From a virus, in the IMG/VR virus record IMGVR_UViG_3300042691_014481, positions 1-26,412 of that record: 26,412 nt of DNA. One strand, 5' to 3'. Shown here piece after piece: positions 5,948 through 26,412 of this stretch (positions are counted from its first letter, which is position 1; every line of letters begins with the position of its first letter). A model generated the notes under the pieces. The model saw only the letters and a list, made by a program, of their open reading frames with translations, did not search any database and was not told where the DNA came from. Both the position numbers and the translations under genes were made by a program.

Positions 5948-6343
5948 ATGATACAAAGACCAAATAACCTGGAAGATAAAATAGGAGGACTTGTTCAACT
6001 TGAACAATACCAAGGACACGCATTAGAACTAGATGGATGGAAACTAACCAATGTTTTGGATGATATATTGATGGTTCAATATATTGATGTTAATGAAGAC
6101 GGAACAGAAATTAAAAGAGGAAGTTTATGGGTTCCTATAAATACTGTTAATTTTGTATGGAGAGTTGGTAAGGTTATTTTAGCCGGACCAAATTGTAAAA
6201 CCGTTAAACAAAATGATTTTATTGTATTTCCAAACGATAAAGGAATACAGGCTGCTAATATAAACGATATTAAAAATGTTGTTTTTTTGAGTGAAAGTAG
6301 AATTTTTGGTATATGTGAACCAAAATTTTTAAAAAATGATTAG
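5948..6343 (+). CDS. GroES-like co-chaperonin (T4 gp31-like)
   Basis: A 131-residue protein with the beta-barrel pattern of GroES. A DDILMVQYIDV strand starts near residue 38. It is followed by a region where the mobile loop would be (NEDGTEIKRG, about 49-58), SLWVPINTV, a WRVGKVILAGPN strand (71-82) and a VKQNDFIVFPNDKGI segment (85-99). It closes with ESRIFGICEP, equivalent to the closing strand of GroES. In T4, gp31 replaces host GroES so that GroEL can fold the large capsid protein. An N-terminal 37-residue extension exceeds the roughly 97-residue bacterial GroES. It starts 6 bases after the gp62-like gene. The fold assignment is by pattern and is moderately secure. Confidence 0.6.
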   Translation: MIQRPNNLEDKIGGLVQLEQYQGHALELDGWKLTNVLDDILMVQYIDVNEDGTEIKRGSLWVPINTVNFVWRVGKVILAGPNCKTVKQNDFIVFPNDKGIQAANINDIKNVVFLSESRIFGICEPKFLKND

Positions 6344-6722
6344 AGTCAGTTTACAAGGTCTAAGGCAATTGTGTGAAACCAATTTGGTAGAATTAAAATT
6401 TATTAGAAGACTAAAATTAGCTGATAAATTTCCAACAAGAAGAATGCTTTGCACAAGAGATATTAGATTATTAAACTCTGACTTAGGAAAAAAAACCTTT
6501 AATTTTACTCTTCCACAAAATTCTCCTGCATACGATACTGTATCTAAAAATTTATTAACTGTTTTTGATATTATATATCAAGACTGGAGAAATATTCCGG
6601 TAGAAAGTGTAGCAGTATTAGTTGCTGTTCCAACTAATCCACAAAAACAATTTTGGGAATATTTTGATAAAAGATTAAGAAATATGACAAAAACACAAAA
6701 GAAAGATTTTATAAATAAATGA
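6336..6722 (+). CDS. WYL_2 / DUF2693 family Sm-like protein
   Basis: The N-terminal 70 residues contain the hallmark run of this phage family: SLxxLRQLCETNLVELKF, then RRxK, PTRRMLCTRDIRLLNS, a Gly-Lys turn and NFTLP. The family is widespread in T4-like and other large phages. It is thought to form a small SH3/Sm-like barrel related to WYL domains, which bind nucleic acids or nucleotides, but no role has been fixed to my knowledge. The C-terminus (about 70-128) includes FDIIYQDWRNIP, also typical, and a basic end. It overlaps the GroES-like gene by 8 bases and the next gene by 4. Confidence 0.8.
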   Translation: MIRVSLQGLRQLCETNLVELKFIRRLKLADKFPTRRMLCTRDIRLLNSDLGKKTFNFTLPQNSPAYDTVSKNLLTVFDIIYQDWRNIPVESVAVLVAVPTNPQKQFWEYFDKRLRNMTKTQKKDFINK

Positions 6723-7087
6723 ATATTTCATCATCACAACTCGAAGATGTATGTAAATCTTTATTACAAAGAACAGTTTCTTTCACAGTTAAAAATAAAA
6801 TAATTAAGAAGGGAAAAATTGAACTTTTTACACAAAGAAATTTCCATATTGTTTTTCATTTACTAACAAATAAAAATAAAAAAGAAAAGCTAGAAATACC
6901 AATTCCATTTTCAATAGAAGAACATCTTGATGATGGTTTGCTTTTTTTTGATTATAGAATTAAATCATTATCAAAGTACTTTCCAGAGGCAGAATCCGAT
7001 TTAGTAAAATTACTAGAAAAAAATAAAAGCAAAAATACTAAATTTACAAATAATATTTTATTAATAGAAAACATAAACAATGAATAA
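6719..7087 (+). CDS. Hypothetical protein, 122 aa
   Basis: I do not recognise this protein. It appears to be mixed alpha/beta: an N-terminal helix (SQLEDVCKSLLQ), two or three strands (TVSFTVKN, KIELF, HIVFHLL), then a mostly helical, lysine-rich second half. It has no signal peptide, membrane segment or conserved metal motif. Its ATG overlaps the previous stop (ATGA) and its own stop overlaps the next ATG, so it is part of the same translationally coupled operon. A TATAAATA string at 6710-6717 lies immediately before it, but that string also encodes the end of the WYL_2 protein and is probably coincidental. Confidence 0.65.
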   Translation: MNISSSQLEDVCKSLLQRTVSFTVKNKIIKKGKIELFTQRNFHIVFHLLTNKNKKEKLEIPIPFSIEEHLDDGLLFFDYRIKSLSKYFPEAESDLVKLLEKNKSKNTKFTNNILLIENINNE

Positions 7088-7337
7088 AAAAACAATTACT
7101 TGTTATAATGCATTTAATGGACGATATTATGAAGTTTTGGAAGAAGATTTCAAATTATTAAGTGAAGGTCAAATTCCTCTTAAAAAGAGGCCAGAAACTA
7201 ATTGTAAGAAATGTTACGGAAGAGGATATGTTGGAAAAAACACACAAGATTTCAGTTACATTCCTTGTTTATGCTTGAAAAAACAAATAAACATGGATAT
7301 ATTGGATAGCATAATACAAAATGCTAAAAAAATATAA
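7080..7337 (+). CDS. Small zinc-ribbon protein (DnaJ-type CxxCxGxG)
   Basis: An 85-residue protein with one zinc-binding cluster. It has CKKCYGRGYVG at residues 42-52, equal to one CxxCxGxG unit of the DnaJ cysteine-rich domain, and CLC at 63-65 as the second ligand pair. Such small single-zinc-ribbon proteins are common in T4-like marine phages beside replication genes. They have no proven function; nucleic-acid or protein binding is likely. It overlaps the following helicase gene by 17 bases, which suggests coupled translation. Confidence 0.65.
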   Translation: MNKKTITCYNAFNGRYYEVLEEDFKLLSEGQIPLKKRPETNCKKCYGRGYVGKNTQDFSYIPCLCLKKQINMDILDSIIQNAKKI

Positions 7338-8982
7338 TCTTGTTGATCTTTTTCCTAAAGGTACAGTACCTAGAAACGCACAAGTAGAAGCATTAGACAA
7401 AATAGATAATGCATGGTCTAATGGGAAAAAATATGTAATAGCATGTCTTCCTACTGGAATAGGAAAAAGTCATATTGCATTAGCTGCTTCTACTAGCAGT
7501 GATAGTATAGACGAGGAAAGAAAAAGAGATATATTAGCATATCAAATTTATAGAATGAACCAAAATGGAGAATATCCATATGACATAGATCATAAGGATA
7601 AACCTCTTTATGGTTCATATATAATGACTATAACAAAATCTCTACAAGATCAGTATAATAGTCTTTTTCCTGACCTTCATTGTTTTAAAGGGAAAAACAA
7701 TTATCAATGTCAGGTGGACTTACAACAAACAGCAGATTTTGCTCCGTGTTTATATTCTAAAAAAACCAAAGATAAATGCTTTAATTCATGCATATGTCCT
7801 TATTATGAAGCAAAAAATAAAGGTATATACTCACAGACGTCGGTATTGAATTATAGAAGTTTTTTTAATCTACGACCATTTCTTCAAAAAAGACAAATAT
7901 TTATTTGTGATGAGGCTGATGGCATAGAAGAAGAACTTGTTGGTCAATTTACTTTAGAAATAAATTATGCTTTTTTAAAGTCTTGTAATATTTCTTTTAA
8001 AAAAATAAAAACAGAAGATTTGTCACATGCTAGAAACTGGTTGTTTGATATTTTTAATCAAACAACAGATCAAATAGAAGACATTAAAAAAACTTTAATA
8101 AATCTTTCTAAGAAAACGGGATCTGAAGCAATAAAAGAAAAACAAATTCAAACAATGAGCAGGTTATCTAAATTGCACAATTCAATGAAGAAAGCTATTG
8201 AGTATTGGGATGAGTGTAGTTTTTTAATAGAAGAAAGAAAAACAGATAAAATTGTCTTTGTTCCATATGACATAAAACCACTATTTAAAGAAATATTTGG
8301 AGTAGCTGATAGAGTTTTGTTGATGTCCGCCACATTAAGTAATCACGAACAATTTGCAAAAAATATGGGAATATCAAAAGACGAATATTCTTATATAGAA
8401 ATGGACTCACCATTTAATCCAGAAAAATCACCAATATTTTGCTCAAATAAATATAATTTATCTTATAGTAATAACAATAAAGATTTAAAAGAAATGATAG
8501 ATGTTTGTTTATCTTTATGCGAGAAACATAAAGATTATAAAGGAATAATACATACACATACTCGTCTTATAACAGAAGAATTTAGAAAAAGAGTTTTTGG
8601 ACAAGATAGATTTTTAATAAGACTTGATGGAGTTTCGAATGAGGACATTTTAAATATACATAAATCATCAAGTGTCCCTACTATATTAGTAAGTCCATCA
8701 TTGGATACTGGAATAAGTTTAGACGGAGATTTAGGAAGATTCCAGATCATATTAAAAGCACCATATCTTCCACTTAGTTCTAAAAGAATTAAAAAGAAAT
8801 TTGATTCAAATCCTAATCAATATTGTTTTTATATGTTAAATACACTAGTACAAATGGCTGGTAGGTGTACTAGATCAAAAGACGATTATTCTATAACTTA
8901 TATATTGGACGGTAATGCAACAAAAGCAATAACTACTAACAAAAGTTCATTACCAAAGCATTTTTTAAATAGAATACACTAA
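7321..8982 (+). CDS. XPD/DinG-type superfamily 2 helicase with candidate Fe-S cysteines
   Basis: A 553-residue ATP-dependent helicase. Motif I is LPTGIGKSH (43-51), motif II is ICDEAD (195-200) and motif III-like LLMSATLS is at 333-340. Strand-end motifs are GIIHTHTR (408-415) and VSPSLDTGISLDG (457-469). Motif VI is QMAGRCTRS (511-519). Between motifs I and II there are six cysteines (C121, C130, C143, C153, C157, C159) ending in CPYYEAK, the layout of the 4Fe-4S domain of XPD/DinG enzymes. These usually unwind 5' to 3' and act on R-loops, forks or repair intermediates. It sits in the replication operon, where T4 itself uses unrelated Dda and UvsW helicases. The exact cluster ligands are not certain. 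Confidence 0.85.
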   Translation: MLKKYNLVDLFPKGTVPRNAQVEALDKIDNAWSNGKKYVIACLPTGIGKSHIALAASTSSDSIDEERKRDILAYQIYRMNQNGEYPYDIDHKDKPLYGSYIMTITKSLQDQYNSLFPDLHCFKGKNNYQCQVDLQQTADFAPCLYSKKTKDKCFNSCICPYYEAKNKGIYSQTSVLNYRSFFNLRPFLQKRQIFICDEADGIEEELVGQFTLEINYAFLKSCNISFKKIKTEDLSHARNWLFDIFNQTTDQIEDIKKTLINLSKKTGSEAIKEKQIQTMSRLSKLHNSMKKAIEYWDECSFLIEERKTDKIVFVPYDIKPLFKEIFGVADRVLLMSATLSNHEQFAKNMGISKDEYSYIEMDSPFNPEKSPIFCSNKYNLSYSNNNKDLKEMIDVCLSLCEKHKDYKGIIHTHTRLITEEFRKRVFGQDRFLIRLDGVSNEDILNIHKSSSVPTILVSPSLDTGISLDGDLGRFQIILKAPYLPLSSKRIKKKFDSNPNQYCFYMLNTLVQMAGRCTRSKDDYSITYILDGNATKAITTNKSSLPKHFLNRIH

Positions 8983-11339: not shown

Positions 11340-11912
11340 TTAAAATGTTTCAAAAAGTAAAATGGAAGCATCTATTTTACATTTTTTTGCAGTATTAGTT
11401 TCTAAAAATCCAATATCTATTTTAAAACTTCCAGTTCCATTAGGAATAAAAGGATCAATAAACAAATGTTGTGGTTGTGGAGTAATAGTAACAGTATTAG
11501 TACTGTTTGATACTTCTAATAATTCGTTAAAATAAAATTGTGTTTGTGTAAATTTTTTATCATTAGGAACATAAGTTAAAGAATATAAACAAATGTTTAC
11601 TCCGGTTCCTTTTGATTGAGTAGCTTTTATCTGAAATAAACCATGAACTGATTTTTTATAATCTTTAAATGTAACTAAATTAGTTCCATTTTGAACAGTC
11701 ATTGATTGAGATGTTACTTTTACATCAAACTCTTTAGATGATTTAATTTTAGTGTTTTTTATTATAAGTCCTGGATATAAATAATTTTTTAATACATTTA
11801 TACCAGTTCTTGCTTCTGGAAAATTAGCATCACTGGTTCTATTTGTTATAAAAAAGTCATCATCTAAGATATTTGATCTAGCTGGTAAGTCTCCAAAAGT
11901 TTTATTTGCCAT
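11340..11912 (-). CDS. Tail fibre-like virion protein with N-terminal anchor motif
   Basis: A 190-residue protein. Its first 47 residues (FGDLPARSNILDDDFFITN, then a short loop and INVLKNYL) match the pattern at the start of the proteins beginning at 14335, 24411 and 25577: a strand ending LP/LS, a LDD or LTD turn, a beta hairpin, and a short helix with NL/NYL. Such domains commonly trimerise and anchor phage fibres. Residues 48-190 are beta-rich (SQSMTVQNGTNLVTFKDY, NTVTITPQPQHLFI), consistent with a small receptor-binding or collar-like domain. It is preceded by an exact late promoter box and followed by the tail-chaperone-like gene. The role is inferred from context. Confidence 0.65.
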   Translation of the reverse strand: MANKTFGDLPARSNILDDDFFITNRTSDANFPEARTGINVLKNYLYPGLIIKNTKIKSSKEFDVKVTSQSMTVQNGTNLVTFKDYKKSVHGLFQIKATQSKGTGVNICLYSLTYVPNDKKFTQTQFYFNELLEVSNSTNTVTITPQPQHLFIDPFIPNGTGSFKIDIGFLETNTAKKCKIDASILLFETF

Positions 11913-13828: not shown

Positions 13829-14335
13829 TTACATGTTTCCTATTACTACCACACTTATAATATACGGATAAACATGTGAATATGATTGAGAAGAGTAATG
13901 ATACAATTTACATTGAGATGCAGTATAAGGCATTGCATTTATAGGCCATAATTCGCTCCAATAATTATTGTATATATCACGAGATGGACTATAAAAATTA
14001 TAAGAAGCAACAACACAATAATCTTTTGTTTTCATTGGTGTTATAAAATTTATATTCGAAACATAATAATTCCAGCTATTGGTTGGGTGGGTTCCTTTAG
14101 TAACAGATGCAACATTAAAACTAGATCTAGGTATCCATACGTCATTATTTATGTCATATTGAACCCAAGCTTTTACTGCTGAATTTCCTTTTGTATTAAT
14201 ATTGTTTATTAAAGACTGAAATGACCATTTTCTTTCTCCACCAAATGATGTTTTTGAAAAACCAACAAGTTTATCTGTTAATGATATATTGGTATCTTCT
14301 TGAAATGTGTTAAAATTTTTTTTAATTGTAGGCAT
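13829..14335 (-). CDS. Short tail fibre protein with anchor and tip domains
   Basis: A 168-residue protein in two parts. Residues 1-48 have the anchor pattern shared with other proteins here (ISLTDKLVGFS, a Gly turn, WSFQSLINNI). Residues 52-168 resemble the C-terminal tip of many phage fibres: KAWVQYDINN, then SSFNVASVT (the common SYNVSSIT motif), a Gly/Pro turn, FITPMKTKDYCVVAS and a final aromatic-rich strand region. This small tip fold is thought to end fibres and may bind receptor. A GATAAATA box precedes it and a tail-chaperone-like gene follows, as expected for a fibre and its helper. Confidence 0.7.
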   Translation of the reverse strand: MPTIKKNFNTFQEDTNISLTDKLVGFSKTSFGGERKWSFQSLINNINTKGNSAVKAWVQYDINNDVWIPRSSFNVASVTKGTHPTNSWNYYVSNINFITPMKTKDYCVVASYNFYSPSRDIYNNYWSELWPINAMPYTASQCKLYHYSSQSYSHVYPYIISVVVIGNM

Positions 14336-15256: not shown

Positions 15257-16198
15257 TTAAATTCTTTCCCATATATTGTCTTTATTTATAGTATATTTAA
15301 TTTGATTATAACCTAATAAATAAAAATCAAACAGACATTCTAAACTAGAGTTTATCTGCAACATTTTACCGGAAAATGGTCTTCCGTTCGCAGAAAAAGC
15401 TTTTTCGGGTTCTTGGCCAGGTGGCCATCCTCTACAGTATCCAGTAGTTTGGCCAGTAGTTTTAGCTTTTTTTGTTCCAGTAACACCCCCATAGGTTCCT
15501 TTTGAATCTATCCATTCATTTGTACAAAACTCTCCCAAGTTTCCACATCGTCCTCCTCCTGTGGGCCTTCCTAGCCCATCAGTCGCCATTTTATTACATC
15601 CAGGACCACTAACACCCTTTCCACCACACTTAAGAAGGAAAGCATCATTATATGATGTATCACAGAGTTCTTTATGTTTAGCTTTAAAATTAAATTTATT
15701 TGGAATATCAGTATATACAAAAACATTTACATTAATGTTTTTGTATATACCATATTTTTGTTCAGGAAATTTATCATTTATCCATTTAGATAAATCATTA
15801 ACTACTTTTTTAGAAGTAGTTTTATTTTCTAATAAAACTCCATTACCTTTATTAAATGTTCCCCATTCTGATAATTCAATAATTTCTGGAAAAATAATTT
15901 CAAATGGAGTGGAAGAATTCTCCCATATTGTTTTATAATTATTATATGTATTTTGTGTGCTAATTAATCTTGAACTAAATTGTCTTGTAAATGTTATAAA
16001 TTTGTTATAGAGATTTTTGTTTTTATCATATCGTTGTTTTAAAATAACAAACTTTTCTATATCAAAAGAAGAACTTTCAAGATCTTGTGTTATCTTTTGT
16101 AAATTTTTATCTATAATATCAAATGATTTATCTAAACAATAATCTTCAGATATTAAAATTGCATTTTGACATGATGTATTTAAAAGATCAAAGTTCAT
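15257..16198 (-). CDS. Cys/Gly-rich fibre/adhesion protein
   Basis: A 313-residue protein. Residues 1-105 are helical (coiled-coil-like, ending NTYNNYKTIW). Residues 110-175 contain a FEIIFPEI strand, the LSKWINDKF helix and INVNVFVYTD, matching the paralogue downstream. Residues 180-285 form a Gly- and Cys-rich region with at least seven cysteines (LLKCGGKG, GPGCNKM, GGGRCGN, EFCTNEW, GYCRGWPPG). It has little predicted secondary structure and noticeably more G and C in the DNA (about 15400-15640) than the surrounding sequence. Its start overlaps the stop of the 1135-residue gene by 4 bases. The Cys/Gly region looks like a swapped-in receptor-binding or cross-linked tip domain; this is inference. 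Confidence 0.6.
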   Translation of the reverse strand: MNFDLLNTSCQNAILISEDYCLDKSFDIIDKNLQKITQDLESSSFDIEKFVILKQRYDKNKNLYNKFITFTRQFSSRLISTQNTYNNYKTIWENSSTPFEIIFPEIIELSEWGTFNKGNGVLLENKTTSKKVVNDLSKWINDKFPEQKYGIYKNINVNVFVYTDIPNKFNFKAKHKELCDTSYNDAFLLKCGGKGVSGPGCNKMATDGLGRPTGGGRCGNLGEFCTNEWIDSKGTYGGVTGTKKAKTTGQTTGYCRGWPPGQEPEKAFSANGRPFSGKMLQINSSLECLFDFYLLGYNQIKYTINKDNIWERI

Positions 16199-19100
16199 AA
16201 CCAGTTTATTTTATTTAAAAATGTATTATAAGGAGAAATTTTATTTATATTTTGTCTAATATCATTTTCAATCATATTTTTTATTGTTCTGGAAACGTTT
16301 AAGTTGTGAATATTTATATTATAATAATTACTCTTATTTCCTGGTAATTGATACTTAAAAAAATGATTTATCTTTTCAATATAGTCTCGTTCTCCTACAT
16401 AAATATTCCAATTTAATGAGTCTCTATTTAAAGATTTACTATCAGAAAAATATAATTGTTCTACTTCGGAACTATTTAATGATTTATTATAAATCATTAA
16501 TTCAGAAACTTTACCTTTAAATTTATAACCATCTTCTATTTTAACCAAATCATTTAAACTTGTACTTCTAACAGTACTAGAACCTAATAATAAAGGTGAA
16601 AGAAAATTATAATATAATATACTATTTTTAGCAAAAGTTTTAGTATCAACCTTTATAGAATCTATATAATATGTACAATTTCCTTCTAGTCCATCAAATG
16701 ATAAACAAAAATGATGCCATCCACTGGGAAGAGACGAAACATTATGTTTTAATGTTAAAACATTAAATTTTTCCTTTAAATTATCAGATGTTTTTACATT
16801 CCATGTTATATTTTTTAATGATGGATTATTAAATTTTCTTAAATAGTCAAAACCAGTAATATCTCCTTTAGCAGAAAAATTCCAATCAGTATTAAATTTT
16901 AATTCATCATTTTCTATGTATGATCGTATATCTATTTTTTTCAATATTTCTCCGGTTGTTTGAAAATAATATAATTTAAAATTAACAGAATCTACAACTA
17001 CTACCACATCATACAATGGTTTTTGTAAATCTAAACAATCTTTATAAAATTCTGTAGAAGATGTTCTTATTATACCTATATAAGAGTATTGTTTTGTTTG
17101 ATTAACTGGAACAAAATCATCTATTAATTTTTTATTAACCTCAAATTTTTCTGTTGTTGTATTAAATTTTAATAAAGTATTATTTTTTGTAATAAGCCAA
17201 ATATTATTATCACTATCACATGTTATGGATTGACATTTATCTATATAAGCTTTTACTGTTCTGTTCGTATAAATTTTTTGAGATGAATTATAGTCAGTAA
17301 GTTTATATAAATTCTGACCAACTATATCCCATAAATTATCATCATTATCTATAACACTAATATATGAATCACAATATACAATAGAATTGTCTGATCTGAA
17401 ATCTATTTTTTCTTTATACACACCTTCTATTTCTTTTACAAAATTACCGGTTTCGCTTATTATTAAAATAACACCGTTATTTCTATCAAAAATATGAAGA
17501 TTTAAATTTCTATCAACAGTAACATAATCAATCTTGGTTATGTACTTTTTAATATTATTCAAATCATTATTTAATAGCTTACCATTACAATCTACTCTAT
17601 ATGCCAAATTGTTATTTGTATCTACAAACCAATAATTAAAATTCGGTAAACTTATTATCCATTCAAAATTAGCATTTGGGTAATTTGAAAAATCAAAAGA
17701 ATTAACACTACCTGCTCTATAGTTTAATGAATATGTTCTTCTTTGTTTGTTTTCTGTAAATGTTAATATTGGACTTATTTGACCATTGTCATTTATTAAT
17801 CCCCAACCACCATCATAATAGTTTCCAAAAATTTGCCAACCATAAATATTAGACCAATTATCTACGTTTAACCATAAAGACACAGTTAGTTTTTTATTTT
17901 CTAATAAATCAGAAGTTGCTGGAAAAATAGCATGATTACTACCATTAAGAACAAAATGGTTAGGGCTTGGTTGAATTGAATTAGACCCAACAATTATTCC
18001 ATCATGCTCATACTTTGAAATATCATCAAGATATGAACCATTCCATTTATTAATATGAAGAGTTTTAGAACCGTATGAGGTTTCTGTTGTATAATCCAAA
18101 TAATTTAAAAATTGCTTGGAACTATTTAATCCTTGTCTAAAATATTTGTATCTTGCCCCTGGTTCTAACATTAAATTAGATTCAACATCATATACATATG
18201 GTTTTTTTGGATCAAGTCTATCAAAGTATTGAAAATAATCAGATGATAATGCCGTGTCTAAAGTGTGATAAGCAGAATTATAATATCTATCAACCCACTG
18301 AGACTTTCCATTAGGCATTCTTCTTAACCAAGAACATAACCAAGTGCCAGTTTCTCTGAAAAAAGACACTGGTTGAGATAATCCAGGAAGTGTGTCTTTA
18401 TAATTTATAGAAAGACCATATATTCTGTCAGATGATATAGGATGTTCACCTGAAATAGCACCAGATTCTATTAAATTTGCGTTTTTTAATTCAACTCTTG
18501 GTGATGTCGGTGGATACTGAAATTCAGTTTCTCTGTCAGAAGGAAAAGATATTTTTGTACTATTTGAAGTATAACTCAAGTATATTTCATCATAACCAGT
18601 CTGTTGATTAGTTCCTGTATGTATCTTCCAATATAGTCTTCTTATATATGGATTATCTTCTACAAAATATGGTCCTTTTGTATAATCATAATTTATATTT
18701 TGATAATTTTTAAGACCACAATAATCTACATTATAATTAGCTTCATCATTAATAATACTTGGAGATTCTGTAGGAAACATCAAAAGAAAATTTTGACTAT
18801 ATTCATTTGATGTTACTGTAGTATCTTTTATTAAAGAATCTATTGGTTCTATTGGAGTACTTATATACTCAACTACTTTGCTATTATTTATGTAATTTTT
18901 ATTAACATTTAATTTTTTATAAGAATTTAATTTAAAAATATTTTCATTTTTAATTCTAAATTCTTGTTTATTTAATGTAATATCATTAAAATATAAAAGT
19001 CCATTTTGACTGTACGATAATATTTTTTTATTATTTGAACCAGCCAAAAATAAAATTATATTTCCATCATCGTTTAAAAAATACTCAAATCTTTGTTTAT

Positions 19101-19602
19101 CAGATTCGGGTTCTATTTTAAGAGAAAAATATGTTAAATATTCACCAACACCATCACACTGCAAAACAAGACCTTCTTTGTTTTCTATATATAACAAATC
19201 GTTATTTGTTGGATCTATTTTAAATTTTAAAACATCAACATCAGAAAATTTTGTTCTATTTGTTACCTGCAAATATTTTTTTACTGAATCAGTAAATGGC
19301 GACACTACAAAACCAGTATTAACACTTATAGTGCTTATTATTTCTGTTAATTTGCTACTGTCTTTTGGTTGTTCTTTAATTCTAAATATATCTGAAGATG
19401 ATAATACGTCTGTCAATACCAAGCTGGTTTGATTATTATTAGCATAATCCATAGCTTGATATAAAAAAGAATGGCCATTAAATCTTGTTCCATTATTAAA
19501 GTAATATGTTTCTTTAATAGAATCTATTTGGAATCCTTGAAAGTTAAATTTTAAAGGATACCAGTAAAAATATTTGGCATTTTTATAAACATTTGCTATC
19601 AT
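16195..19602 (-). CDS. Large virion protein: LamG domain interrupted by a propeller-like insertion
   Basis: A 1135-residue protein, the largest in the window. Residues 1-500 are beta-rich with no family that I recognise. A LamG/Laminin_G_3-type jelly roll begins at about 545 (HFVLNGSNHAIFPATSDLL, then LTVSLWLNVDNW at 572-583 and WQIFGN). It resumes only at about 945-1050 with LPSGWHHFCLSFDG (958-971), YYIDSIKVDTKTF, LLLGSS and FKGKVSELMIYNKSLNSSEV (1028-1047). Between them, about 645-895 carries repeated strand units such as YVTVDRNLNLHIFDRNNG, DNDDNLWDI and CDSDNNIWLITKNNTLLKF, typical of NHL-like propellers. LamG domains bind glycans or proteins. It overlaps its neighbours by 4 bases on each side, so it is cotranscribed with the 264- and 313-residue genes. 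Confidence 0.75.
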   Translation of the reverse strand: MIANVYKNAKYFYWYPLKFNFQGFQIDSIKETYYFNNGTRFNGHSFLYQAMDYANNNQTSLVLTDVLSSSDIFRIKEQPKDSSKLTEIISTISVNTGFVVSPFTDSVKKYLQVTNRTKFSDVDVLKFKIDPTNNDLLYIENKEGLVLQCDGVGEYLTYFSLKIEPESDKQRFEYFLNDDGNIILFLAGSNNKKILSYSQNGLLYFNDITLNKQEFRIKNENIFKLNSYKKLNVNKNYINNSKVVEYISTPIEPIDSLIKDTTVTSNEYSQNFLLMFPTESPSIINDEANYNVDYCGLKNYQNINYDYTKGPYFVEDNPYIRRLYWKIHTGTNQQTGYDEIYLSYTSNSTKISFPSDRETEFQYPPTSPRVELKNANLIESGAISGEHPISSDRIYGLSINYKDTLPGLSQPVSFFRETGTWLCSWLRRMPNGKSQWVDRYYNSAYHTLDTALSSDYFQYFDRLDPKKPYVYDVESNLMLEPGARYKYFRQGLNSSKQFLNYLDYTTETSYGSKTLHINKWNGSYLDDISKYEHDGIIVGSNSIQPSPNHFVLNGSNHAIFPATSDLLENKKLTVSLWLNVDNWSNIYGWQIFGNYYDGGWGLINDNGQISPILTFTENKQRRTYSLNYRAGSVNSFDFSNYPNANFEWIISLPNFNYWFVDTNNNLAYRVDCNGKLLNNDLNNIKKYITKIDYVTVDRNLNLHIFDRNNGVILIISETGNFVKEIEGVYKEKIDFRSDNSIVYCDSYISVIDNDDNLWDIVGQNLYKLTDYNSSQKIYTNRTVKAYIDKCQSITCDSDNNIWLITKNNTLLKFNTTTEKFEVNKKLIDDFVPVNQTKQYSYIGIIRTSSTEFYKDCLDLQKPLYDVVVVVDSVNFKLYYFQTTGEILKKIDIRSYIENDELKFNTDWNFSAKGDITGFDYLRKFNNPSLKNITWNVKTSDNLKEKFNVLTLKHNVSSLPSGWHHFCLSFDGLEGNCTYYIDSIKVDTKTFAKNSILYYNFLSPLLLGSSTVRSTSLNDLVKIEDGYKFKGKVSELMIYNKSLNSSEVEQLYFSDSKSLNRDSLNWNIYVGERDYIEKINHFFKYQLPGNKSNYYNINIHNLNVSRTIKNMIENDIRQNINKISPYNTFLNKINWL

Positions 19603-21053: not shown

Positions 21054-23165
21054 TTAAATAGGTGTTTTTACATTAGAACAACAAGAACTCGTTGCATTAC
21101 TCCAATTTTTTGTCTGTGTATATGTAGATGTAAATGATGTGGTTAATTCTCTAAAAGAAATTGGATTAATATTACATGTTCTTATCATTGGTCTTTTTAA
21201 ATTATATGTTGACATAGCTTTCCATGACCAACAAAATGCAGAATTACATTTATCTAAATTTTTTCCTATTTCACTTTCTGCCGTTTTTGTTTCTATGTCC
21301 AAAAAATATTTTATTTGTAATAATGAATCATATATTTTTTTAAATTCTCTATTTAAAACAGAAGGAGAATGTATTTCGTTAACACCAACTTCTACTGTAT
21401 TGTTTTCAACATCATATCCTAAATTTGGTCTTTCATTAGAAGAAACAGGATATGATCTAAAATATGTAATAATACCAGCAGGAGTGGATTCTTCTGTTAA
21501 TTCTAATTTTGATTCCAATGAATTTTTAAATGTTACTATGTTTTGACATAATCTACTAAAAACTCTATTTATGACTAAATCTTGAACCATTTCGTCTTGT
21601 TTAATCAAAATTTGATCATCTGTCCAATATTGTGTATCAAGACCTTCACCTGTTATAACAATATCTGTTATTTCCTGACATTTTACTATAGCTTTATCAG
21701 TTGCTAAAAAAATACTTCTATTAAGGCCGCTTTTTCCTGTATTATATTGTTGTTTTGGAATTTCTAAAAAATCCATATATAATCCAAGAGCAGTATATTT
21801 AAAAACAATACTAGAATCACCACTTCCACCCAAAATAGCACCCTTTGATGAAGAAAGTGATGTTATTACATAAAAGAATTCACCGGTCTGATCGAAAAAT
21901 ATTTTTTTAGGAACTAATGAAGAAATATTAGATATGTTTAATGTTGATATTATTGTATTTGTTCTATTTTGTATTATATAAATTTTGTCTTTTGTTAAAA
22001 CATATAAAGAATTAGTGCTTTTATGTACTGCAATAGATAATGGAATATTATCATTAAAAACCGAAGGTCTGTATGTATAAATCCATTCTAATTTATCACT
22101 ATAAGATTTTATACATCTATTATTATAATCCAAAACATAAACTATATTATTATTAAATAAAACTTGTGTTGGATTATTGAAAGTAAATGGATCAACTTCA
22201 TCACCATAAGAACCGATTATTCTTGTTAATGATAAAATTGGATTATATGTTTCATATAAACTATTAGTAGAATCAAAGTCTATATCTATTCTACACAATT
22301 TATTCTGAAAAGAATCTATTAAATAGATTTTTTTTCCTAAACTATCTATATCCATAGATATTATGTTAGTAAATGTATTAAAAATATCGGAATAGTTATC
22401 AAATTTTACTTCTTGTAATTTGTTAGAATTTTTATATATTTTAAATCCGTTTTTATTTAAAATATAAAGCAAAGAACTTGTTTCTGCTATATCCCTTATT
22501 TCAGAAAATCCAGGAACGGCTGTTGTATTAGAATAGTATTCTTTTCTGTAATCAGGTGTATGCCAACATAAACCATCTGATGGTCTTGAACCATTTAATC
22601 CCAACCAACCATAATATAAAGAAGGTGTTTTTGAGTTTAAAATTCTTGTATTTGATTTTAAATAATTTAAACAATCTATTAATTTTTTTATAGAATTGTT
22701 ATATATGCTATGAACACCAAATTCATTAGGATTTATTTGAATTTGCTCAAATGTATAAGGAAGGGTTAATATATTTTCACCAAGTATTCTTATGTTTTCT
22801 TGATTAAAAGATGGCCAGTTTTTTAAAACAGTTATAGGTGTGTCTGTATAAAATGTTTTTTCTGAACCATTTGAATATTTAACAGAATAAGAAACATTAT
22901 ATGTTCCTATATTTTTATAAGTATATGTTAAATTATCTAATAAGTTGATAGTAGTATCATCTAAATCTAGTTTAGTATATATTGCTTCTTTTGTGTTTAC
23001 ATCAAAATCACCAGTATATAATTTTAATGTAGTAATCTTTAGATTCTTATTTAAAGAAGTAGGTAATTCAAATTTAAAAAAAACAGAACTGTTTACTAAT
23101 GTATTATAATTAGATATAAACAATCTAGGTTCTGCTGTATTATTACCGGATATTAAAGTAGCCAT
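21054..23165 (-). CDS. NHL-type beta-propeller virion protein
   Basis: A 703-residue protein. Residues 25-115 look like a PKD/Ig-like domain (YTYKNIGTYNVSYSVKY, 81-97). Residues 220-500 form a propeller. Successive blades carry a strand pair around (I/L)Y(L/V)(L/I)D, such as SLLYILNKNGFKIYK, KKIYLIDSFQNKLCRIDI, FNNPTQVLFNNNIVYVLDYN and NSLYVLTKDKIYIIQ. The third is an almost canonical NHL repeat. Residues 500-600 look helical (QDEMVQDLVINRVFSRL), and the end is Cys/Ser/Thr-rich with CC near residue 696. It begins the 23165-to-about-13829 transcription unit and is separated from the repeat-propeller genes by a 70-base gap. It is probably a baseplate or fibre protein contacting host polysaccharide; the target is unknown. 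Confidence 0.75.
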   Translation of the reverse strand: MATLISGNNTAEPRLFISNYNTLVNSSVFFKFELPTSLNKNLKITTLKLYTGDFDVNTKEAIYTKLDLDDTTINLLDNLTYTYKNIGTYNVSYSVKYSNGSEKTFYTDTPITVLKNWPSFNQENIRILGENILTLPYTFEQIQINPNEFGVHSIYNNSIKKLIDCLNYLKSNTRILNSKTPSLYYGWLGLNGSRPSDGLCWHTPDYRKEYYSNTTAVPGFSEIRDIAETSSLLYILNKNGFKIYKNSNKLQEVKFDNYSDIFNTFTNIISMDIDSLGKKIYLIDSFQNKLCRIDIDFDSTNSLYETYNPILSLTRIIGSYGDEVDPFTFNNPTQVLFNNNIVYVLDYNNRCIKSYSDKLEWIYTYRPSVFNDNIPLSIAVHKSTNSLYVLTKDKIYIIQNRTNTIISTLNISNISSLVPKKIFFDQTGEFFYVITSLSSSKGAILGGSGDSSIVFKYTALGLYMDFLEIPKQQYNTGKSGLNRSIFLATDKAIVKCQEITDIVITGEGLDTQYWTDDQILIKQDEMVQDLVINRVFSRLCQNIVTFKNSLESKLELTEESTPAGIITYFRSYPVSSNERPNLGYDVENNTVEVGVNEIHSPSVLNREFKKIYDSLLQIKYFLDIETKTAESEIGKNLDKCNSAFCWSWKAMSTYNLKRPMIRTCNINPISFRELTTSFTSTYTQTKNWSNATSSCCSNVKTPI

Positions 23166-23235: not shown

Positions 23236-24411
23236 TTAAAGTTTGTTATAATATGCACTCATACAAGTTTCTATTGGTATATTACAACTTGCATTTAATT
23301 CAGATGTTATTTGTAGAATATCTGTAGAATACCATGGCATACCATAAATCTTACCATTTGGTGCTAGAACTCCTCCAATCCATTTATTACCATCTGATAA
23401 AGTAGCTCCCATTGCACTTCGGGTTGCAGTTCCTGCAACCGGATCTATAATAAGAATATCTGTAGAATTACGTGGAATACCATAAATTTTACCATTTGGT
23501 GCTAGAACTCCTCCCTGCCATTTAGCACCACCTGTTAAATCAGCACCCATTGCACTTCTGGTAGCAGTACCTTCAACTGGGTCTATAATAAGAATATCTG
23601 TAGAATTCCATGGAATACCATAAATCTTACCATTTGGTGCTAGAACTCCTCCATGCCATTTAGAAGAACCTGTTAAATCAGCACCCATTGCACTTCTTGT
23701 AGCAGTACCTGCAACTGGGTCTATAATAAGGATATCTGTAGAACCATATGGAATACCATAAATTTTACCATTTGGTGCTAAGACTCCTCCAATCCATTTA
23801 TCACCACCACTAGGTAAAGTAGCTCCCATTGCACTTCCGGTAGCAGTACCTGCAACCGGATCGATAATAAGAATAACTGTAGAACTAAATGGAATACCAT
23901 AAATCTTACCATTTGGTGCTAGTACACCTCCAAACCATTTAAGAGTACCAGATAAAGTAGCTTCCATATTACTTCTGGTAGCAGTACCTGCAACTGGATC
24001 AATAATTAAAATGTCTGTGGAATAATTTGGCATACCATAAATCTTACCATTTGGTGCTAGAACTCCTCCCTGCCATTTAAGAGTACCAGTTAAATCAGCA
24101 CCCATATTGCTTCTTGTTGCAGTACCTGCAACTGGATCTATTATTAAAATATCAGTAGAACTATAAGGAATACCATAAATCTTACCATTTGGTGCTAGTA
24201 CACCTCCAAACCATTTAGCACTACCTGTTAAAGTAGCTCCCATATTGCTTCTTGTTGCAGAAGCAGTAGGGAATTGAGTGAATAAATCATTTCTAAATGT
24301 ACCCAATGTGATATTATTATTAGCTGTTCCAGTGTTTTCAGCAGTAGGAATTAAACCATCCAAAGACGGATTTATTGCAACGGGTAATTGTGAAATTTTT
24401 AAATCTGGCAT
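23236..24411 (-). CDS. Seven-repeat beta-propeller fibre protein (third of three paralogues)
   Basis: A 391-residue protein. Residues 1-51 form the anchor domain (ISQLPVAINPSLDGLIPT... LGTFRNDLF). Residues 52-374 are seven repeats of 46 residues (the fourth has 47). Their framework is TRSxMGAxLxGxxKWxGG, then VLAPNGKIYGIP, then xxSTDILIIDPVAGT. The seventh ends ILQIT instead of ILIIDP. A conserved tail, NIPIETCMSAYYNK, closes the protein. Seven units with a PNGxxY core suggest a seven-bladed propeller, comparable in repeat length with tachylectin-2 (about 47 residues, sugar-binding). Variation is concentrated after KW (F,Q,F,I,H,Q,I) and after IP/MP. It is probably a receptor-binding fibre protein, cotranscribed with the 387-residue paralogue 2 bases upstream. 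Confidence 0.75.
   Translation of the reverse strand: MPDLKISQLPVAINPSLDGLIPTAENTGTANNNITLGTFRNDLFTQFPTASATRSNMGATLTGSAKWFGGVLAPNGKIYGIPYSSTDILIIDPVAGTATRSNMGADLTGTLKWQGGVLAPNGKIYGMPNYSTDILIIDPVAGTATRSNMEATLSGTLKWFGGVLAPNGKIYGIPFSSTVILIIDPVAGTATGSAMGATLPSGGDKWIGGVLAPNGKIYGIPYGSTDILIIDPVAGTATRSAMGADLTGSSKWHGGVLAPNGKIYGIPWNSTDILIIDPVEGTATRSAMGADLTGGAKWQGGVLAPNGKIYGIPRNSTDILIIDPVAGTATRSAMGATLSDGNKWIGGVLAPNGKIYGMPWYSTDILQITSELNASCNIPIETCMSAYYNKL
23290..24258 (-). repeat. Seven tandem ~138-bp repeats within the propeller gene
   Basis: Direct repeats coding for the blades of the 391-residue protein. The segment for LAPNGKIYGIP and the segment for ILIIDPVAGT are nearly identical in DNA between units, which makes recombination between units likely. 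Confidence 0.9.
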
Positions 24412-24413
24412 AA

Positions 24414-25577
24414 TTAATTTTTATTATAATAAGAACTTAAACATATATCAATTGGGATATATGTTGTTTGACTAAATTCTGGTGTTATTTGTAAAATATC
24501 TGTACTATCATAAGGTATTCCATAAATCTTACCATTTGATGATATGATACCACCGACCCATTTACCAATACCAGTTAAATCAGAACCCATATTGCTTATA
24601 GTTGCTGTATTTGCAATTGCATCTATAATTAAAATATCTGTACTACTAAATGGTATCCCATATATTTTACCATTTGGTGTTAGTACTCCACCGACCCATT
24701 TATTAGAACCAGTTAAAGTAGCACCCATTGTACTTCTGGTTGCGGTATTATTAATTGGATCAATAATTAAAATATCTGTACTACTATAAGGTATCCCATA
24801 AATTTTACCATTAGAAGCCAAAACACCTCCATTATTCCATTTAGCAGTACCAGTTAAAGTAGCACCCATTGTACTTCTGGTTGCGGTATTATTAATTGGA
24901 TCAATAATTAAAATATCCGTAGCACTATAAGGTATCCCATAAATTTTACCATTTGGTGCTAGTACTCCACCTAACCAGTTATCATTTCCACTTAAATTAG
25001 CACCCATTGTGCTTCTTGTTGCAGTGTTCGAAACTGGATCAATAATTAAAATATCTGTAGAATCGCAAGGTATCCCATATATTTTACCATTTGATGCTAG
25101 GACTCCACTAATCCATTTATCAGAACCGCTTAAATTAGCACCCATTGTACTTCTGGTTGCAGTATTAGTAATTGGATCAATAATCAATATGTCTTCAGAG
25201 TCTCTAGGTATTCCATAAATTTTACCATTTTGTGCTAGGACACCACCAATCCATTTATCGGTACCAGTTAAATTTGCACCCATTGTACTTCTGGTTGCAG
25301 TATTAGCAATTGGATCAATAATTAAAATATCTTCAGATTCTCTAGGAATACCATAAATTTTACCATTTGGTGCTAGGCAGCTTCCAAACCATTTAACAGT
25401 ACCAGTTAAAGTAGCACCCATTGTACTTCTTGTTGAACTTGTACTTTCTTGTAAAGTAAAAAAATTATATTTTAAATTTGCAAGAGATGCTGTTTTGGTA
25501 ACACCGTCATTAACAACAATAACTCTATCATCAAGAGTCGGGTTATTTATAGCACTTAATGAAGCAATTGTTACCAT
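24414..25577 (-). CDS. Seven-repeat beta-propeller fibre protein (second paralogue)
   Basis: A 387-residue protein with the same plan as its downstream neighbour. Residues 1-48 are an anchor (IASLSAINNPTLDDRVIVVN... SLANLKYNFF), related in pattern but not in residues to that of the neighbour. Residues 49-371 are seven ~46-residue repeats, one with an extra Asn (KWNNGG). The closing blade again has ILQIT and the tail reads TYIPIDICLSSYYNK. Its repeats use ITNT/NNTA linkers rather than VAGT, so the repeats within this gene resemble each other more than those of the neighbour, a sign of homogenisation within the gene. Post-IP residues are RE, RD, CD, YS, YS, FS and YD. It is followed by the third paralogue after 2 bases. 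Confidence 0.75.
   Translation of the reverse strand: MVTIASLSAINNPTLDDRVIVVNDGVTKTASLANLKYNFFTLQESTSSTRSTMGATLTGTVKWFGSCLAPNGKIYGIPRESEDILIIDPIANTATRSTMGANLTGTDKWIGGVLAQNGKIYGIPRDSEDILIIDPITNTATRSTMGANLSGSDKWISGVLASNGKIYGIPCDSTDILIIDPVSNTATRSTMGANLSGNDNWLGGVLAPNGKIYGIPYSATDILIIDPINNTATRSTMGATLTGTAKWNNGGVLASNGKIYGIPYSSTDILIIDPINNTATRSTMGATLTGSNKWVGGVLTPNGKIYGIPFSSTDILIIDAIANTATISNMGSDLTGIGKWVGGIISSNGKIYGIPYDSTDILQITPEFSQTTYIPIDICLSSYYNKN
24465..25433 (-). repeat. Seven tandem ~138-bp repeats within the second propeller gene
   Basis: Direct repeats encoding the seven blades of the 387-residue protein. Two adjacent units (about 24705-24770 and 24847-24912) share a long identical stretch over the GTxxLTGT and ILIIDPINNTA coding parts, consistent with recent duplication or conversion. 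Confidence 0.9.
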
Positions 25578-25585
25578 ACCTTAAA

Positions 25586-25762
25586 TTAAACTGCTTTTAA
25601 TATCCAAGCATTGTTTTCCCAATAAGGAAAATTAACATCTTGTTCATAATTCGGGCATGGCTCTGTTGTACATCCTACAGTTTCTGTATCATAAAAGGGA
25701 GTTCCAGAACCTGCAAATTTTCCAGTTTCTTTCTCGTAGCAATAATATATTGTTTGTTCCAT
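25586..25762 (-). CDS. Small tail-fibre-assembly-like protein, 58 aa
   Basis: An ATG at 25762 opens a 58-codon frame ending in TAA at 25588-25586. It fills the gap between two propeller genes with 8 bases downstream and 12 upstream. The protein has an IYYCYEKETGKFAGSG segment (5-20), a TTEPCP turn (32-37) and a FPYWENNAWIL end (46-56). This is the YxYdxxTGxfxG ... TT.xPP ... W....W.. layout found at the N-terminus of phage fibre-assembly proteins. Three cysteines (C8, C31, C36) are unusual for its size. It may be a helper or a small subunit of the propeller fibres. Confidence 0.6.
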   Translation of the reverse strand: MEQTIYYCYEKETGKFAGSGTPFYDTETVGCTTEPCPNYEQDVNFPYWENNAWILKAV

Positions 25763-25767
25763 AAAAA

Positions 25768-25775
25768 TATTTATT
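25768..25775 (-). promoter_or_regulatory. Weak late-promoter-like box AATAAATA
   Basis: Seven of eight matches to TATAAATA on the minus strand, 6 bases before the ATG at 25762 and touching the stop codon of the upstream propeller gene. The same variant occurs at 20406-20413 before the 264-residue gene. Either may be chance in A/T-rich leaders. Confidence 0.2.
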
Positions 25776-26412
25776 TAAAATTTATTGTAATATGCACTAA
25801 TACATCTTTCAATTGGTATATTAACAGCAGATGTATTTAATTCTGGTGTTATTTGTAAAATATTTGTAGTCTCGATCGGCATACCGTAAATTTTACCATT
25901 TGGTGCTAGTACCCCTCCGGCCCATGTATTAGTATCAGGTAAACTAGCACCCATGTTACTTCTTGTTGCAGTACCTGCTACTGGATCTATTATTAAAATA
26001 TTCGAAGAATAATTGGGAATGCCATATATCTTACCATTTGGTGCTAATACTCCTCCGGCCCATTTATTAGTGCCAGTTAAAGTAGCACCCATGGCACTTC
26101 TTGTTGCCGTCCCTGCTATTGGATCTATTATTAGAATATCTGTAGAATTATAAGGAATTCCGTAGATCTTACCATTTGGTGCCAGACCTCCTCCGATCCA
26201 TTTAAGAGTACCAGATAAATCAGCACCCATGTTACTTCTGGTTGCAGTACCTGCTACCGGATCAATAATTAGAATATCTGTAGAATTATAAGGAATTCCA
26301 TAGATATTACCATTTGGTGCTAATACTCCACCATACCATTTACCAGTTAAATCAGCACCCATGTTACTTCTGGTTGCAGTACCTGCTACCGGATCTATTA
26401 TTAAAATATCTG
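25775..26412 (-). CDS. Beta-propeller fibre protein, first paralogue (5' end beyond window)
   Basis: The frame is open to the right edge; the ATG at 26362 is an internal Met of a repeat (SNMGADL), not the start. Visible are the end of one repeat (DILIIDPVAGT) and four full ones, the first of 44 residues because two residues before KW are missing. The last blade has NILQIT and the tail is NIPIERCISAYYNK, as in the two paralogues. Residues after IP/MP are YN, YN, NY and IE, and after W are Y, I, A and A. It is therefore the third and most upstream copy of the propeller family. By analogy it should have about three more repeats and an anchor domain outside the window. Confidence 0.75.
   Translation of the reverse strand, partial: DILIIDPVAGTATRSNMGADLTGKWYGGVLAPNGNIYGIPYNSTDILIIDPVAGTATRSNMGADLSGTLKWIGGGLAPNGKIYGIPYNSTDILIIDPIAGTATRSAMGATLTGTNKWAGGVLAPNGKIYGIPNYSSNILIIDPVAGTATRSNMGASLPDTNTWAGGVLAPNGKIYGMPIETTNILQITPELNTSAVNIPIERCISAYYNKF
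25826..26412 (-). repeat. Tandem ~138-bp repeats within the first propeller gene (partial)
   Basis: Four complete units and part of a fifth, continuing beyond the right edge. One unit is shortened to 132 bases. Units are closer in sequence to those at 23290-24258 (VAGT linkers) than to those of the gene between. Confidence 0.9.

Follow-up and report, generated by a model that had tools for sequence, protein, structure and literature searches.

Predicted seven-bladed beta-propellers with one variable face: a three-gene array encoding candidate receptor-binding proteins in a viral genome record

Repetitive propellers with hypervariable faces are already known from fungal NOD-like receptors (NLRs), and the fibres of extracellular contractile injection systems (eCIS) bear propeller lectins on collagen shafts. 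Highly repetitive beta-propellers, as described by Pereira and Lupas, are widespread and continuously amplifying (PMC9218822). The HNWD NLRs of Podospora anserina (het-d, het-e) carry near-identical WD40 blades whose hypervariable sites are under diversifying selection (PMC12222747), and the eBAP3 fibres of eCIS place beta-propeller lectins with collagen-like shafts on contractile injection systems (PMC12923769). Here we analyse three adjacent propeller genes, g1, g2 and g3, which lie on the minus strand at the right end of IMG/VR record IMGVR_UViG_3300042691_014481; the window analysed is the complete record (26,412 bases). We propose, with a probability of about 70%, that g1-g3 are paralogous genes for adhesins, or receptor-binding proteins, carried on the virion of an uncultured phage with a T4-like contractile tail.

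The g1 gene (23236-24411) encodes a complete protein of 391 amino acids, composed of an N-terminal cap, a seven-blade propeller and a C-terminal tail, and the complete g2 product (24414-25577, 387 amino acids) has the same architecture. The two are 66% identical across nearly their whole length. The g3 gene (25775-26410, 211 amino acids) is truncated at its 5' end, and only its last four blades and its tail are visible because the contig ends inside the gene. A 138-bp repeat was detected in g1, g2 and g3 (Tandem Repeats Finder scores 1159, 1078 and 676, respectively), with 15 copies of the unit in register, which rules out chance repeats. The sequence-only reading of this DNA had described three adjacent genes made of near-identical 46-residue units, and this was confirmed, with seven units in g1, seven in g2 and four in g3 (18 in total); its list of the residues that follow KW and IP was exact for every unit. 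Two of the motifs that it gave need qualification: KWxGG is nearly constant, but two units have NW or TW and one has an extra residue (WNNGG), and the SAYYNK tail stands except for g2, which ends in SSYYNK.

A single-chain AlphaFold2 model of g1 was obtained from alignment A2, which comprises 48 homologues from the window and from viruses. The mean predicted local distance difference test (pLDDT) score was 88.8, reaching about 97 over the blades (residues 51-370) and falling below 50 in the first 41 residues, and the predicted template modelling score (pTM) was 0.87. The model contains 28 strands. A lone strand at residues 49-54 is followed by six sets of four and by a final set of three, to which the N-terminal strand adds the fourth, closing the ring in a velcro manner. 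The best solved structural matches were streptogramin B lyases (2z2o, 2qc5; Foldseek E-value 1e-13, Z 30.4, root mean square deviation 2.6), followed by Lp49 and YncE (Z about 24). This high-confidence model and the lyase fold match bear out the seven-blade claim of the sequence-only reading, and the g1 repeat region (approximately 23305..24273) is almost certainly predicted correctly as a closed seven-bladed beta-propeller. The repeat units of g2 and the visible ones of g3 occupy approximately 24483..25439 and 25847..26410. A sequence search of the PDB with g2 alone found nothing, and a profile search returned designed SAKe propellers and NHL propellers, a likeness at the level of the fold only. 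Pfam DUF6923 (PF21959, cut-off 27) matched g1 at 33.4 bits and g3 at 24.9 bits, below the cut-off, and did not match g2; PHROGs gave only weak matches to the propellers, of unknown function. Matches to SepRS_C, DarH, Peptidase_C53 and similar Pfam or NCBIfam entries involved few residues or far-off functions and were taken as repeat artefacts.

In the unit, column 15 is a residue of the D-A loop, column 18 follows the W, and columns 33 and 34 are the two residues after IP. Strand A of the model starts at the W residue, strand B ends at IP and strand C starts past the residues that follow IP; this order places columns 14, 15 and 18, which are among the variable positions, in the D-A connection and columns 33 and 34 in the B-C connection. 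The D-A and B-C connections lie on the same side of a propeller. Entropy exceeded 1.5 bits in 7 of 18 columns on this side compared with 1 of 28 elsewhere (Fisher p 0.004, with few columns). The variable residues therefore share one face, as had been proposed, judging from strand topology and column statistics rather than from coordinates.

Across the 18 window units, columns 15, 18, 33 and 34 were the four most variable (entropy 2.4-2.9 bits), and their proportion of nonsynonymous differences (pN, 0.50-0.64) equalled or exceeded the typical proportion of synonymous differences (pS). At framework codons pN was near 0-0.2 and pS often 0.3-1.4. Amino acids that stay nearly invariant while silent sites have strongly diverged show that the framework is under purifying selection, and the same divergence rules out very recent duplication as the cause of its conservation. 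The four columns also ranked as the most variable within single proteins in 84 viral and 60 cellular homologues. In viral and cellular members alike, column 33 was 45-61% aromatic, compared with 7-10% in the background, and enriched in Arg and His; column 34 was rich in Asn, Asp and Ser family-wide. Such a composition is unlike that of idle loops and is of a binding type, possibly glycan-binding.

The nearest relative, L015 (IMGVR_UViG_3300035670_000315), carries an array of three propeller genes whose order matches that of the window. The g1 cap (24274..24411; about 46 amino acids, 'KISQLP' type, low pLDDT), a candidate virion attachment segment, is 78% identical to its L015 orthologue and 21-34% identical to the other paralogues; for the g2 cap (25440..25577) the values are 65% and 24-36%. 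Similarly, the C-terminal tails of g1 (SELNASCNIPIETCMSAYYNKL, 23236..23304), g2 (PEFSQTTYIPIDICLSSYYNKN, 24414..24482) and g3 (PELNTSAVNIPIERCISAYYNKF, 25775..25846) are 82%, 77% and 87% identical to their L015 orthologues, compared with 32-73% for the other paralogues, and the NK motif of the g1 tail is kept at the C-terminus of most relatives. The blades behaved differently. DNA identity with L015 was 76% (g1) and 78% (g2) for equivalent blades and 75% and 76% for non-equivalent ones, and at the variable residues, similarity between equivalent blades did not significantly exceed that between any pair of blades (permutation p 0.11 and 0.75). The identity of g1 blades to one another was 0.808, compared with 0.748 to the blades of its L015 counterpart x1; for g2 the values were 0.776 among its own blades and 0.760 to those of x2. 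Since the caps are orthologous and the blades hardly so, blades were turned over while the caps descended vertically. As in the highly repetitive propellers (PMC9218822), the array encodes closed propellers amplified from one blade, in which each blade resembles the others of its gene more than its equivalents in relatives, with no blade-for-blade orthology; it differs by its diverged silent sites, its arrangement as three paralogues side by side in a phage, its fixed caps and its mapped variable face, and viral members figure in that study only in passing.

The earlier note had also called for a comparison with related phages. CrV gp012 (L013 6510-9963) and Cr-LKS4 g13 (L014 6528-9960) end in a homologous seven-unit propeller with the same variable positions, carried by proteins of about 1138 amino acids that have another N-terminus and a unit in which Tyr replaces Trp. 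One of these Cylindrospermopsis phages comes from the Netherlands and the other from Israel, and the stretches compared are 97.6-98.6% identical. Between their propellers, nonsynonymous changes numbered 38 and synonymous ones 5 in the variable columns (pN 0.44, pS 0.18), compared with 20 and 2 in the framework columns (pN 0.038, pS 0.011). This nonsynonymous excess is striking but descriptive, short of a formal test. YSGI occurs in six of the seven LKS4 blades and many changes recur across the blades of one phage, which indicates a few events spread by homogenisation. In three other close pairs (L004/L020, L007/L071 and L085/L084), the variable sites changed about 4-7 times faster than the framework at the amino acid level. 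Variation thus falls at the same positions throughout the family, and in the single near-identical pair most of it is nonsynonymous. A second hypervariable patch was observed in the N-terminal part, at residues 199-278, of CrV gp012 and Cr-LKS4 g13, with about 20 nonsynonymous codon differences and very few silent ones.

Fixed scaffolds with varied binding residues are also found in receptor-binding proteins diversified by diversity-generating retroelements (DGRs), such as Mtd and the tentaclins. A search with RVT_1 found no reverse transcriptase (RT) in either of the complete Cylindrospermopsis phages; the window, itself a fragment, was not searched with RVT_1. The sole RT found in 42 contigs lies about 10 kb from its propellers, with no repeat linking it to them; read by eye, it looks like the group II intron type. 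Codon changes between CrV and LKS4 were, again by eye, not adenine-biased. A DGR was ruled out because the two complete cyanophages lack an RT and the only other one is unlinked.

The window encodes a tail sheath stabilizer of T4-like type. It also carries several consecutive minus-strand genes, one with a tail-fibre PHROG match and one with a laminin-G-like domain, and this content fits a tail-fibre region. In relatives the propeller is joined to virion parts: in L004 a long TSANWDSVYTSV repeat shaft separates the same cap from the propeller, the N-terminus of the L025 protein matches tail-fibre PHROGs, and L035 (4005-5945) joins a phage head-completion (Hc1) domain to the propeller, which suggests display on the head or neck instead of the tail. 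These fusions to fibre-like and head-completion parts indicate that the propeller module is displayed on several virion parts. In the Cylindrospermopsis phages the propeller gene lies two places past 'virion structural protein' genes. L015 encodes a 714-residue collagen-like protein (Pfam Collagen, E-value 3e-52) directly upstream of its array; the window ends before that place. In its domain types this recalls the propellers and collagen-like shafts of the contractile eCIS particles (PMC12923769); eBAP3 is one fibre protein, whereas in L015 the collagen-like gene is adjacent to, and not fused with, the propeller genes. The best viral structural match was the collagen triple helix repeat protein A0A1V0SG21 of Hokovirus HKV1 (42% identity, TM-score 0.81 over the query), which takes its name from the collagen repeats that it also contains and belongs to a giant virus of eukaryotes. 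In L193 (3001-3450), among apparent phage structural genes, a 'KISQLP' cap precedes a different C-terminal domain, so that the cap may be a general docking segment.

Several other genes of these regions were noted. Window positions 16195-19602 encode a 1135-residue protein with a C-terminal concanavalin-like (Laminin_G_3) domain, likely another adhesin beside the array, and a 703-residue protein with a weak NHL match in its middle adjoins g1 (21054-23165). This neighbour and the window helicase had no match in the relatives' contigs searched (ten for the neighbour), which may miss the region. Two small minus-strand proteins could be fibre types, one (11340-11912) having a weakly 'KISQLP'-like N-terminus and the other (13829-14335) a tail-fibre PHROG match (E-value 3e-5). 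In L015, genes that read as glycosyltransferase- and methyltransferase-like (6151-8763) lie directly downstream of the array.

Scans of viral contigs gave 79 and 48 loci of the family. Exactly seven units were detected in 48 of 67 non-redundant complete viral open reading frames, nearly all of which end about 20 residues past the last unit with a tail such as LSxYxNKF. DUF6923 matched 37 of 48 relatives at E-values up to 0.01, and by these matches covers part of the family; a literature search on the unit sequence or on DUF6923 found no description of this phage family. A scan of genome contigs gave 62 loci, many of them in Desulfuromonadales and spirochaetes and with lipoprotein-like N-termini. 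At least five distinct propeller genes (L146, L153, L168, L173 and L184), each on its own contig, occur in one Leptospirales genome (JAEUSB01), a cellular expansion of the family. In Planctomycetes, protein kinase domains are joined to a seven-unit propeller (L176, 3784 onward; L183, 1 onward), L176 also having an FGE-sulfatase domain.

Several of these observations weigh against the adhesin proposal. The excess of nonsynonymous change was found in one close pair only, where homogenisation leaves the changes non-independent, and in the three other pairs pN was not above pS at variable sites. The cap has no confidently predicted fold and a single weak PHROG match (tail fibre, E-value 0.12). The L035 fusion means that display need not be on the tail, and with many relatives being cellular lipoprotein-like proteins or kinase fusions, the propeller alone is not diagnostic of a phage adhesin. 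The pN values of most close pairs and the L035 fusion would be expected if the propeller were a generic module of virion display or decoration, its variable positions being unconstrained loop residues that drift with no ligand for each variant. We consider this unlikely, as neutral surface loops would not be about half aromatic, with Arg and His besides, at column 33 in viruses and cells alike, and nonsynonymous change far exceeds silent change at the variable sites of CrV and LKS4.

A propeller-type enzyme resembling streptogramin lyase or glutaminyl cyclase, such as one that would degrade a polymer on the host surface, is highly improbable. It would account for the closest solved fold (Z 30), since the lyase Vgb is seven-bladed too, and for a weak match to Pfam Glu_cyclase_2. 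However, Vgb is a catalytic enzyme to which sequence identity is 13-14%, and the invariant or near-invariant columns of alignment A2 consist of Gly, Pro, Tyr, Leu, Ile, Val and Asn; none is His, Asp or Glu. A single His occurs, in one g1 blade, and the catalytic His and Glu of the lyase have no counterpart, as judged on family columns and not by residue alignment with Vgb. There is equally little to recommend secretion into, or placement on the surface of, the infected host: the Desulfuromonadales and spirochaete relatives are lipoprotein-like by their N-termini, but g1 and g2 start with the 'KISQLP' cap and have no signal peptide by eye, and the relatives that carry this cap or a fibre shaft sit among phage structural genes.

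We therefore favour virion adhesins, and domain architecture (propellers at the C-termini of virion fibres) and residue composition (aromatic, Arg and His) support, as inferences, the terms 'receptor-binding' and 'tunable' of the sequence-only reading. The short N-terminal cap would probably dock each protein to a fibre or another part of the virion. Seven near-identical blades, kept as a scaffold by purifying selection, would form the propeller, which the N-terminal strand closes and the conserved C-terminal tail follows. The start of strand A, the D-A loop and the B-C loop, repeated seven-fold on one face, may form the binding surface, with as many as seven blades each offering four or five varied residues (aromatic, Arg, His, Asn, Asp) to a ligand on the host surface, most likely a glycan. 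Specificity would evolve as the variable positions are substituted and as the blades between the fixed caps turn over through duplication, conversion or shuffling, and the three paralogues would give several faces per phage.

More tentatively, and at somewhat less than even odds, the module may be an RT-free recognition cassette of fixed caps and exchangeable blades, recombined among paralogues and relatives in phages, giant viruses and bacteria so that the binding face is renewed, in the manner of fungal NLRs with their WD40 blades. The HNWD receptors are the nearest functional likeness, with concerted evolution, hypervariable repeat sites on one interaction surface and blades that set specificity; they differ in being WD40-type immune sensors inside fungal cells, whose 11 conserved repeats have been modelled as two propellers, and no homology is claimed. 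If the proposal is true, phage biology would gain a widespread, largely unnamed recognition module whose binding positions are already marked by sequence, and a receptor-binding face that is diversified without a DGR. The shared module would then link phage adhesins to the collagen-propeller proteins of giant viruses, to surface proteins of bacteria and to kinase-linked sensors.

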